Positions 7,092 to 9,996 of a stretch of DNA of 9,996 nucleotides are shown in pieces. Position numbers and translations under genes: made by a program. The notes under the pieces were generated by a model. It did no database searches, had not been told where the DNA came from, and was given only the letters and a program-made list of their open reading frames with translations. Source of the stretch: Candidatus Aerophobota bacterium (GTDB lineage Bacteria > Aerophobota > Aerophobia > Aerophobales > B3-G15); assembly GCA_014859225.1 (NCBI GenBank), contig JACUUP010000049.1, positions 1 to 9,996 on the forward strand. The letters run 5' to 3'. Position 1 is the first letter of the stretch. Each line of letters starts with the position of its first letter.

Positions 7092-7406
7092 ATGAAAGAT
7101 ATACAAACCTCACTTATCTGTAGCCATTGCTTAAAAGAGGCACCGGTAAAAATAACATATCTGGGAAATTCAATGGTTAAAGTCACCTGTAAAAGTTGTG
7201 GTTATACCATTAAAATCTCCCCCACGCCTTCATCCTGTATTTCTTCGGTTAAATGGGAACACAGATTGCTTACCAAACCTATCAGATTAGCATTAGAGAT
7301 GAAAACAGATTCTCTCCATTTCATATCCACTTTCCCTTTGCGAGTTATAACCAAACCTCTTCGGATTGTGCGGGAATTAGAAAAGGCACTTTTAAAGGTA
7401 GGATAG
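7092..7406 (+). CDS. Small zinc-ribbon protein with a duplicated TKP motif
   Basis: The 104-residue protein has an N-terminal zinc ribbon with two CxxC knuckles (C10-C13 and C33-C36, the second in CKSCGYTIKIS). This fold usually binds nucleic acid or protein. A basic linker follows, then a helical tail with two copies of one motif: LLTKPIRLALEM (59-70) and VITKPLRIVREL (85-96). It resembles short clostridial proteins annotated as 'bh protein', but I have only memory for that and no function is known to me. The gene is convincing: strong promoter, AAGGGGG eight bases before ATG, and a Cys pattern that would not persist by chance. The stop codon lies within a palindrome at 7398-7424, so the last residues may be altered by that insertion. 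It is convergent with the NYN gene. Confidence 0.82.
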   Translation: MKDIQTSLICSHCLKEAPVKITYLGNSMVKVTCKSCGYTIKISPTPSSCISSVKWEHRLLTKPIRLALEMKTDSLHFISTFPLRVITKPLRIVRELEKALLKVG

Positions 7407-7424
7407 GCGTCTCGCCTGTCCTAC
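7398..7424. repeat. REP-like palindrome overlapping the zinc-ribbon stop codon
   Basis: Twelve base pairs (one G-T) close a three-base loop: GTAGGATAGGCG at 7398-7409 pairs with CGCCTGTCCTAC at 7413-7424. The TAG stop of the upstream gene (7404-7406) is inside the left arm. No U-run follows, so an intrinsic terminator is unlikely, but the hairpin would protect the 3' end of the mRNA. GTAGG...CGCCTGTCC palindromes of this kind occur as dispersed repeats in other bacteria (recollection, not tested). Confidence 0.75.
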
Positions 7425-7570: not shown

Positions 7571-8311
7571 TTATCTTTTACGTCTCCCCCTTATGTACAT
7601 TGCTTTGGATTGACCGTCTCCCACTGGACGCTCTTCCATTTCAAAGAGTTTTGTTGCTGCAACCAGTTCGCTGAGTCTCCTGTAACCGTAGTTTCGCGGA
7701 TCAAAATCCGGAGCCTGTTTGGCAATATTGTTTCCCACGGGTGCCAGATGTGCCCATCCACTCTCGTCTGAGGATGCCTCTGCCGCATTTCGTAGTAGAT
7801 TGGTCAGCTTTGTATCTTGCTTGAGCTCATTAGTAGATTTTCGTTTTATGGGCTGAGTGTCATCTTCTTTGGATATCAAAACCTCGGTATATATAAATTT
7901 ATCACACGCAGAAACAAAAGCTTCGGGTGTTTTTTTTTCTCCAAACCCATATACAAAAAGACCCGATTCTCTTATTCTTGAAGCTAATTTGGTAAAATCG
8001 CTGTCGCTTGAAACTATACAAAAACCATCAAATTTGTTTGTATATAGTAAATCCATGGCATCAATTATCATGGCGGCATCGGTAGCATTTTTCCCTACCG
8101 TATAGCGAAATTGTTGTATCGGCTGGATTGAGTAGAGCAGTAAAACTTCTTTCCAGCGCTTTAAATGAGATCCGGTCCAGTCTCCGTAGATTCTCTTGAC
8201 GTTGGCGGTTCCATATTTCGCTATTTCTGCCAGCAATGCCTCTACAATTGAGGGTTGAGCATTATCTGCGTCAATTAATACTGCCAATTTTTGTGCTGGT
8301 TCATTATTCAT
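7571..8311 (-). CDS. NYN-domain RNase-like protein with C-terminal OST-HTH/LOTUS-like domain
   Basis: NYN domains are PIN-like folds that cut RNA using clustered acidic residues. In this 246-residue protein the N-terminal domain (about 8-145) has LIDADNAQ (D14, D16, N17), KNATDAAMIIDAMDLL (D78, D84) and IVSSDSDF (D103, D105), so the presumed metal site is complete. After a charged linker (147-167) a winged-helix region (about 168-241) with LTNLLRNAAEASSDESGW, NYGYRRLSELV and LFEMEER resembles OST-HTH/LOTUS, a proposed RNA-binding module. I use ATG 8311, with GGAG at 8320-8317; a TTG at 8326 is an alternative but would overlap the predicted transcription start. The substrate is unknown. It is relatively rich in G+C and may be accessory. 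Confidence 0.88.
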   Translation of the reverse strand: MNNEPAQKLAVLIDADNAQPSIVEALLAEIAKYGTANVKRIYGDWTGSHLKRWKEVLLLYSIQPIQQFRYTVGKNATDAAMIIDAMDLLYTNKFDGFCIVSSDSDFTKLASRIRESGLFVYGFGEKKTPEAFVSACDKFIYTEVLISKEDDTQPIKRKSTNELKQDTKLTNLLRNAAEASSDESGWAHLAPVGNNIAKQAPDFDPRNYGYRRLSELVAATKLFEMEERPVGDGQSKAMYIRGRRKR

Positions 8312-8330
8312 AATGTCTCCTGGCAAATTT

Positions 8331-8358
8331 ATTTTATCCTTTATCAGGAATTTGTAAA
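8331..8358 (-). promoter_or_regulatory. Proximal promoter for the NYN gene
   Basis: On the minus strand TTTACA (8358-8353) and TAAAAT (8336-8331) stand 16 bases apart, each 5 of 6 to consensus. The start would fall near 8324, giving a very short leader that still contains the GGAG of the NYN gene. A second, weaker promoter-like site lies upstream in the repeat at 8424-8457. Confidence 0.6.
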
Positions 8359-8400
8359 CAAAATAGCTTTACGTGATTTTTGGCATTATGTGGTTTTCAT

Positions 8401-8477
8401 GGGGTCAACCATATTAGTATACAGAATTCCACAGTATCAAGGTTTATCAACATGTCATATACCCAGGACCTGACCCC
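8401..8477. repeat. 77-base segment bounded by short inverted repeats
   Basis: GGGGTCA at 8401-8407 is the exact inverse of TGACCCC at 8471-8477. Together they enclose the first copy of the 34-base repeat. The right end (GGACCTGACCCC) resembles ends I associate with REP-transposase elements; that is recollection. Seven bases can match by chance over this span, so the segment as a mobile unit is only a suggestion. Confidence 0.3.
8424..8457 (-). repeat. 34-base repeat, copy 1, upstream of the NYN gene
   Basis: This copy matches 9746-9779 at 33 of 34 bases and lies in the same orientation relative to a minus-strand gene. The core contains TATCAAGGTTTATCAAC, itself a near-direct repeat of TATCAA. 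Read on the minus strand it has ATGACA and TACTGT 16 bases apart, a degraded version of the promoter in copy 2. Sequence outside the 34 bases is not shared. Confidence 0.85.
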
Positions 8478-8479
8478 CT

Positions 8480-8968
8480 TTATTTTAAAATTTCTATCTG
8501 GCTTGGGTCATTTAAAATTATTTCAGGCCCTCCCTCGTATTCTTTGATATAACCGGACACACGAACTTTCTTTCCATAATAGTAATTTTCTGGATTCGCC
8601 GGGAATCGGGGAAAGGCTGATGCAAAAATAACCGCTGTGAAATATCTCCTGTAATCAGGATGGAAATTGAGAAAACAGGCTTTACCCGAATTATGGGTAG
8701 CGACAATCGTACCTTCTACCATTGCATACTCTCCATAGTGCTTGGCAGCATCCTGCCAGGAAATTATCCGGAGTGTGCCTGTTAGTTGTTGAGATTCGGC
8801 CACGGGCGTCTTTACCTGTTCACTTGTCGGCTCCTGTAAAAGCAAATTAGCGCGTCGCTGGTCAACAAACCAGACTTTAGCCAGGTACATCACCAAAACC
8901 ACCGCTGCCAGCGTAACCCCAAGCCTAACAAGAAACTTTTTAAGGTCAGAGTTGTGATTGGCTATCAT
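8480..8968 (-). CDS. Membrane-anchored OB-fold protein, partner of the thermonuclease
   Basis: This 162-residue protein has a basic N-terminus (K10, K11, R15), a membrane helix at about 12-34, a polar linker, and a C-terminal OB-fold domain (about 66-161). Visible domain marks are WQDAAKHYGEYAMVEGTI, ACFLNFHPDY, FTAVIFASAF, YYGKKVRVSGYI and GGPEIILNDPSQIEI. The pattern is close to the OB domains that accompany secreted nucleases such as the YhcR type, where the fold probably binds nucleic acid. The charge pattern predicts the OB domain outside the cytoplasm. The ATG overlaps the thermonuclease stop as TAATG, with AGGGGG six bases before, so translation is coupled. No catalytic site is seen; a role as substrate-binding partner is inference. 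Confidence 0.82.
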   Translation of the reverse strand: MIANHNSDLKKFLVRLGVTLAAVVLVMYLAKVWFVDQRRANLLLQEPTSEQVKTPVAESQQLTGTLRIISWQDAAKHYGEYAMVEGTIVATHNSGKACFLNFHPDYRRYFTAVIFASAFPRFPANPENYYYGKKVRVSGYIKEYEGGPEIILNDPSQIEILK

Positions 8969-9687
8969 TACTTGCCCCCTTCCCCGGTTAGAGAATCCAC
9001 GTTCTTCATCTCTTCAAAGGGATATTGTTGGACAAGTTCCTCCAGAATATCATCCAGACTTTTGCGTCCTTCCATACTAAGTGATTCATATCTCTTTACA
9101 AGATTGGCAATCCTGCCATCCCTGAGTGATAGGTCCCATAAACCGGATTGATGTTGGCGTGCTTCACGTTCCAGGGCGATAAAGTCAGCCTGTCGGTGAA
9201 AAGGGAATCGGGTATATGCGTATGCGTAACCTCGACGGATTAGCTCGGCGTTCGCAAGTCTATCTCCCACAAAAACATATGCCAGGAGCCTTCCATATTG
9301 GTCACGAATATTGCCGGGCTCGTATTCCAATGTGCATTCAAATCCCTCGGCAAACTGTCTCAGAAACTCCGTTGCCTCCTCCCCGAACCTTTGCACCGGT
9401 ATCTCTGGATGATTGGTTTCTGGAGCATCCACCCCGATTAGGCGAACCCTCTCGCCATTATCAAGTACTATTGTGTCACCATCTATAACACGACTCACGC
9501 GATACGGACCTGGAGAAGGTAAAGGCTGATGTGTGGATAAGGATTCTATCTCAGTTTGCACAGATGTAATGGGAGCAATTCTCAAAACTATATCAAACCT
9601 ATGGAATATGAACATTACCAAAATAACAGTTCCTGTAATTATCACCACTAATATTAAAAATCCATCACGTAAGAATTCCATTATCAT
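8968..9687 (-). CDS. Membrane-anchored staphylococcal-nuclease-like (thermonuclease) protein
   Basis: Thermonucleases are calcium-dependent enzymes that cut DNA and RNA. This 239-residue protein has an N-terminal membrane helix or uncleaved signal (about 9-29), a linker, then an SNase domain (about 60-190). All key residues are present: D69 and D71 in RVIDGDTI, R82 in VRLIGVDAPE, D87 and E90, and R133 in DQYGRLLAYVF. A helical C-terminal extension of about 45 residues with alternating charges follows and is unrecognised. Start ATG 9687 has a poor ribosome site; ATG 9681 is a fair alternative. The stop overlaps the OB-fold gene. G+C is clearly higher than in the dcw genes, and CGN arginine codons are frequent, hinting at acquisition. 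Likely role: nucleic-acid degradation outside the membrane. Confidence 0.92.
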   Translation of the reverse strand: MIMEFLRDGFLILVVIITGTVILVMFIFHRFDIVLRIAPITSVQTEIESLSTHQPLPSPGPYRVSRVIDGDTIVLDNGERVRLIGVDAPETNHPEIPVQRFGEEATEFLRQFAEGFECTLEYEPGNIRDQYGRLLAYVFVGDRLANAELIRRGYAYAYTRFPFHRQADFIALEREARQHQSGLWDLSLRDGRIANLVKRYESLSMEGRKSLDDILEELVQQYPFEEMKNVDSLTGEGGK

Positions 9688-9706
9688 ACACCGTAATAGT
9701 TTAGCT

Positions 9707-9732
9707 TCTCTAAAGGGTTCATCTTTAGGAGA
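9707..9732 (-). other. Hairpin in the thermonuclease 5' leader
   Basis: TCTCTAAAG (9707-9715) pairs with CTTTA and GAGA (9723-9727, 9729-9732), with G9728 bulged and a seven-base loop. It lies between the predicted promoter and the nuclease start codon, so it would form in the mRNA leader. No U-run follows; function is unknown. Confidence 0.45.
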
Positions 9733-9745
9733 ACTTACCTGTTAC

Positions 9746-9779
9746 GAATTCCATAGTATCAAGGTTTATCAACATGTCA
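9746..9779 (-). repeat. 34-base repeat, copy 2, upstream of the thermonuclease
   Basis: This is the second copy of the repeat at 8424-8457, differing at one base. The two copies flank the OB-fold/thermonuclease pair as direct repeats about 1.3 kb apart. They end abruptly, with no similarity beyond the 34 bases on either side. Confidence 0.85.
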
Positions 9780-9780
9780 A
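9753..9780 (-). promoter_or_regulatory. Promoter within repeat copy 2, for the thermonuclease/OB-fold pair
   Basis: On the minus strand a perfect TTGACA (9780-9775) stands 16 bases before TACTAT (9758-9753, 4 of 6). Transcription from about 9746 would give a leader near 60 bases, with the hairpin at 9707-9732. The first T of TTGACA comes from the base just outside the repeat, so copy 1 (ATGACA) is weaker. Confidence 0.55.
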
Positions 9781-9783
9781 GAA

Positions 9784-9879
9784 ATGCGACCACTTGACAG
9801 AGTTAAAAAAGTATGTAATCATTTAAAACCTGATATTGGCGCTTTTAGTAGAAGTAAATTTTTGAAAATTTTTGAATAA
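9784..9879 (+). CDS. Possible 31-residue leader peptide or gene remnant before the ferredoxin
   Basis: An ATG at 9784 opens a 31-codon frame that ends with TAA at 9877-9879, directly before the ferredoxin ribosome site. Its product is basic with a balanced composition (DRVKKVCNHLKPDIGAF near the middle), which looks more like real protein than random AT-rich sequence. The ribosome site is poor and the frame closes just upstream, inside the 34-base repeat. It could be the truncated 3' end of an older gene or an unused frame. No family recognised. Confidence 0.25.
   Translation: MRPLDRVKKVCNHLKPDIGAFSRSKFLKIFE
9794..9822 (+). promoter_or_regulatory. Possible promoter for the ferredoxin gene
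   Basis: A perfect TTGACA (9794-9799) is followed after 17 bases by AATCAT (9817-9822, 4 of 6). Transcription from about 9829 would leave a leader of nearly 70 bases. The weak second box makes this tentative, and it overlaps the possible 31-codon frame. Confidence 0.4.
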
Positions 9880-9895: not shown

Positions 9896-9996
9896 ATGGC
9901 TATTAAAGAAGTGTGGATAGATGAAGATGCATGCACAGGTTGCGGACTTTGTGAGGATACCTGTCCCGAGGTCTTTGAAATGGAGGATGATGTTGA
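9896..9996 (+). CDS. 4Fe-4S ferredoxin (N-terminal part, cut by window edge)
   Basis: Ferredoxins of this type are small cytoplasmic electron carriers. The 33 visible residues contain the first cluster motif C13-x2-C16-x2-C19-x3-C23-P, inside DACTGCGLCEDTCPEVFEM. The acidic surroundings (EDD runs) and the CPEVFEM sequence match the short single-cluster ferredoxins of about 60-80 residues, in which a distant C-terminal cysteine can complete the set; the end is not visible. AAGGAGG at 9881-9887, eight bases before ATG 9896, is a strong ribosome site. Whether it has one or two clusters cannot be seen here. Confidence 0.93.
   Translation, partial: MAIKEVWIDEDACTGCGLCEDTCPEVFEMEDDV

Follow-up and report, generated by a model that had tools for sequence, protein, structure and literature searches.

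The window, meaning the whole stretch of DNA analyzed here, is 9,996 bases long and constitutes a complete contig (C137) of the host draft genome, which totals 1.8 Mb in 273 contigs. It carries minus-strand genes for a NYN protein, an OB-fold protein, and a thermonuclease, together with two nearly identical copies of a 34-base sequence placed ahead of the NYN gene and ahead of the thermonuclease gene. The features of the locus are as follows.

7398 to 7424, plus strand: palindrome GTAGGATAGGCGTCTCGCCTGTCCTAC with a GTAG tag, representing a second type of REP and lying immediately beyond the 3' end of the NYN gene
7571 to 8326, minus strand: NYN and OST-HTH/LOTUS protein (Pfam PF01936, 8e-39; PF12872, 1e-18), likely start ATG 8311
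8331 to 8358, minus strand: promoter-like site TTTACA-16-TAAAAT (10/12), the better candidate for the NYN gene, followed by AGGAG and ATG 8311
8397 to 8409, plus strand: TCATGGGGTCAAC, a possible decayed opposite arm of the terminal inverted repeat (TIR), weak in that just GGGGTCA (8399) matches the TIR consensus
8424 to 8457, minus strand: copy 1 of the 34-base repeat, which reads TGACATGTTGATAAACCTTGATACTGTGGAATTC on this strand and has degraded hexamers ATGACA/TACTGT
8452 to 8477, minus strand: RAYT/TIRYT-type terminal-repeat unit GGGGTCAGGTCCTGGGTATATGACAT, overlapping copy 1 at its edge through the inner TGACAT of the unit
8480 to 8968, minus strand: OB-fold protein with an N-terminal hydrophobic segment (PF01336, E 3.6e-4, under the curated cut-off)
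8968 to 9687, minus strand: thermonuclease (SNase) with an N-terminal hydrophobic segment (PF00565, 4.5e-23)
9746 to 9779, minus strand: copy 2 of the 34-base repeat, upstream of the thermonuclease/OB-fold operon; once T 9780 is included, the site is TTGACA-16-TACTAT with an extended TG
9794 to 9822, plus strand: divergent promoter-like site of the ferredoxin gene, TTGACA-17-AATCAT

The NYN gene starts either at TTG 8326 or, preferably, at ATG 8311, which is preceded by AGGAG. The stop codon of the thermonuclease gene overlaps the start of the OB-fold gene (TAATG), and a natural fusion supports the view that the two form one functional unit: in genome G009 (L007:1396-2256), which belongs to the same order, the thermonuclease and OB domains are joined in one 287-codon frame that encodes an exported-looking protein. 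The NYN and thermonuclease/OB-fold units are both missing from the two other genomes of the family (82-84% complete), and all three genes thus look accessory. The thermonuclease also matches a PADLOC model (C3a212, SNc+LTD, 1.7e-29); the widespread SNase domain probably accounts for this match, and no defense neighborhood was seen around the gene.

The two copies of the 34-base sequence form a direct repeat in the same orientation, with 33 identical bases and sharp edges, at exactly the positions given by the initial annotation. Its statement that nothing is shared beyond the repeat also holds, as BLAST returns just short chance words outside the 34 bases and a gapped alignment extends the match by only TAC, with one indel. 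A chance origin is negligible (approximately 5e7 position pairs times approximately 100 variants, divided by 4^34, or on the order of 1e-11). A search of the genome and its relatives, proposed together with the repeat, recovered two copies in the host draft genome, both in the window, at up to three mismatches and also with a 20-base core, and none in 60 other genomes, 16 of which belong to the same order. Exact matches were likewise absent for a 21-base core among 84,980 species genomes and for a 31-base core among viral contigs, searches that diverged copies would escape. A further partial match at 9672 (GAATTCCAT-TATCA) is not significant as a third copy (p 0.17), and the window contains no Rfam families.

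The two copies differ in quality as promoters. Copy 2, read with one additional base, has an extended -10 and scores 10/12 plus TG at a distance of 59 bases from the thermonuclease start (ATG 9687), while copy 1 scores 8/12 and is separated from the NYN start downstream of it by 98-113 bases. The earlier description of -35/-10 pairs with 16-base spacing, strong in copy 2 and weak in copy 1, and its distances to the genes were therefore accurate. The label "promoter-like" itself suits copy 2, which resembles sigma-70-type promoters with an extended -10 in its hexamers and in the TGA before the -10, but not copy 1, whose degraded hexamers no longer conform. For the thermonuclease gene, the best promoter candidate lies inside the repeat; for the NYN gene it does not, the site at 8358-8331 being better. 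Judged by these motifs, copy 2 is a good and probably working promoter of the thermonuclease/OB-fold operon, and copy 1 is probably a decayed promoter copy. Promoter-like sites are not rare here: their total in the window is no higher than in shuffled sequences, and seven sites reach 10/12. The spacer of both copies carries a direct repeat, TATCAA-N4-TATCAA. At 9753-9822, the -35 boxes of the ferredoxin site and copy 2 lie close together and form an inverted repeat, TGTCAAG/CTTGACA.

Copy 1 abuts a second kind of repeat. Ahead of it the minus strand reads AAAGGGGGTCAGGTCCTGGGTATATGACATG, and a genome search with GGGGGTCAGGTCCTGGG found 14 sites, with none for a reversed control. A refined unit, GGTCAGGTCTTGNNNATTTGACAT, occurs at 15 sites in the genome, including that of the window, again with no hits for the reversed control and with at most one weak match per relative. 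On inspection, two of the 15 (L065 and L067) proved to be interior positions within elements of a sister family rather than true ends. Copy 1 thus adjoins a member of this family of 24-26-base units, which has about a dozen other sites in the genome. Written on the minus strand as GGGGTCAGGTCCTGGGTATA/TGACAT..., this member shares 22 of 26 bases with the dispersed unit GGGGTCAGGTCTTGAGCATTTGACAT, and its score against the genome consensus is 18, compared with a shuffle mean of 6.1 (0 of 1,000 shuffles reach it). Its inner end, TGACAT, coincides exactly with the six bases that open the 34-base match when the minus strand is read, and its outer end, GGGGTCAG, fits the GGGGWSAS motif that marks the TIRs bounding RAYT relatives (PMC3733652). 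A literature search for the TIR sequence itself returned unrelated papers alone. By our estimate, the chance that any repeat edge would adjoin one of approximately 25 such units in 1.8 Mb is on the order of 1e-3.

The DNA that follows TGACAT differs at every true unit site, which indicates that the 34-base sequence is no standard part of the element, and no comparable 34-base capture at a TIR was seen in the local sequences of the other unit sites. Beside copy 2, a TIR is not significant (p 0.24, or p 0.04 when the shared TGACAT is counted). The opposite arm beside copy 1 may be TCATGGGGTCAAC, which is not significant when aligned to the TIR consensus (p 0.52); the same exact 13-mer also flanks a RAYT element on contig C77. 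Hairpin folding of the 88-base stretch around copy 1 is no better than that of shuffled sequences (z -0.31). A 17-mer from the flank of copy 2 has one match in a viral contig, where it looks like coding sequence.

The host genome also contains a sister type, GGTCAGGTCTTGCAATATMAC..., which occurs as inverted pairs in elements of 89-125 bases. Miniature elements of this length with inverted ends of approximately 23 bases, GGTCAGGTCTTGCAATATMACAT, lie at L017, L020, L024, L025, L028, and L065, and their autonomous partner is likely the RAYT gene on C77 (L032). There, a Y1 transposase gene (PF01797) lies between the ends GGGGTCAGGTCTTGCAATAT... and ...GACCTGACCCC. These ends represent the TTGCAATAT subtype; the unit beside copy 1 represents a sister subtype. 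These repeats resemble the TIRs of TIRtrons and TIRYT (PMC3733652) in their GGGGTCAG ends, in bounding a Y1 transposase gene, and in occurring between genes both as scattered singles and as inverted pairs. Copy 1 differs from them in having one clear arm and, as inner DNA, what appears to be a duplicate of a host promoter from 1.3 kb away. As with REPINs and RAYTs (PMC3116915, PMC2817692), the inverted pairs are the mobile unit and the singlets are remnants; singlets are expected as remnants of former pairs (PMC3116915), and the capture of pieces of neighboring DNA between REPs has been described (PMC2817692). In contrast to REPs, however, these units do not form perfect palindromes headed by GTAG.

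The repeat is thus a real feature that represents a known kind of biology, best read as a short and recent duplication at the end of a mobile element. For its origin, we favor, at roughly even odds, a promoter duplicate recently joined to the TIR unit. Copy 2 would be the native promoter of the thermonuclease/OB-fold operon, divergent from the ferredoxin promoter, and copy 1 a recent 34-base duplicate of it, placed directly where a GGGGTCAGGTC-type terminal repeat has its inner end, with TGACAT common to both. Repeats of this type are of the kind mobilized by RAYT/TIRYT (Y1, HUH) transposases. The join could have arisen when a host fragment was captured into a TIR-bounded unit or through template switching or microhomology at the shared TGACAT. 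Copy 1 would since have lost its quality as a promoter and probably has little effect, while the NYN gene would be transcribed from its own promoter. We infer the direction of copying from promoter quality and the TIR junction, the locus being kept in no relative that could serve as an outgroup. If this reading is right, the locus gives a modest example of how the ends of single-strand transposons join to and copy host regulatory DNA, and near-identical upstream repeats would be no evidence of coregulation until mobile-element ends have been looked for at their edges. A broader extension, in which RAYT/TIRYT-type terminal repeats act as promoter movers that replant host promoters before other genes and copy 1 is an example caught in place, is doubtful.

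The main rival to a promoter duplicate retains the TIR and reverses the origin of the 34 bases: they would be a promoter from inside the left end of a RAYT-type element, and the two copies would be insertion scars from which the transposase gene has been lost. The layout of copy 1, TIR-TGACAT-...-TACTATGG, does follow that of the left ends of RAYT elements in the order, which run TIR-(TTGACAT)-approximately 20 bases-ATG (L042 and L032). However, the 34-base sequence resembles none of four RAYT 5' regions with which it was compared (p 0.14-0.54), no significant TIR lies beside copy 2, and a TIR followed by TGACATGTTGATA within 5-14 bases occurs in none of the 84,980 species genomes; we regard this origin as unlikely. 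Somewhat less probable still is common control of the NYN and thermonuclease units, which the initial annotation had proposed. A promoter or operator would be shared, and selection would maintain the identity, perhaps for TATCAA-N4-TATCAA. Each copy does lie upstream of a minus-strand gene and points toward it, and copy 2 is a good sigma-70-like site. The case is nonetheless weak because copy 1, at 8/12, is poorer than the 10/12 site at 8358-8331, which has a Shine-Dalgarno sequence right behind it, and because a match that runs through the whole spacer and then stops sharply points to recent copying, not to promoter similarity kept by selection. The abrupt end of the match on both sides and the lack of a third site in the genome also argue against a shared operator, and the products look unrelated in place, since the N-terminal hydrophobic segments of the SNase and OB-fold proteins suggest the envelope whereas the NYN-LOTUS protein has none. 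Common control of the two units is accordingly not upheld.

The same annotation had offered a second possibility, a small mobile or recombination unit that brought in the 1.3-kb segment. In that case the copies would be attL/attR-like direct repeats around a 1.3-kb cassette integrated by site-specific recombination, which we consider improbable. Direct repeats of about the length of a recombinase core do bracket exactly two coupled genes that are absent from the two other family genomes; but the NYN gene is absent from the same two relatives, so the 1.3-kb segment is not alone in being missing there. Inverted recombinase arms are missing (the best symmetry is 5/9, poorer than in 99% of shuffles), no recombinase gene occurs among the open reading frames of the window, which stops with the contig at 9996, and there are only two copies genome-wide. 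The GC content of the segment, 0.445, is unremarkable compared with 0.408 +/- 0.026, and an empty site was not found in the relatives examined, in which synteny at the ferredoxin locus is lost. The idea of a mobile unit therefore does not survive for the 1.3-kb segment, yet it was correct in that a small mobile element is involved, namely, the RAYT-type terminal repeat beside copy 1, which had gone unseen. An assembly artifact, in which the contig was misjoined through the 34-base sequence, is suggested by the fragmented state of the draft and by a window that is an entire contig, but it is very improbable: the copies differ by one base, all four flanks differ, the flanks of each copy make sense (intact operons and the TIR), and 34 bases are short relative to usual read lengths.

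Beyond the units discussed above, the GTAG-type palindrome at 7398-7424 is a closer match to REPs than the unit beside copy 1. Partial units related to this palindrome occur at other loci of the genome, at L021/L056 and, as AGGACAGGCGTCTCGCCTGTC, in L060.
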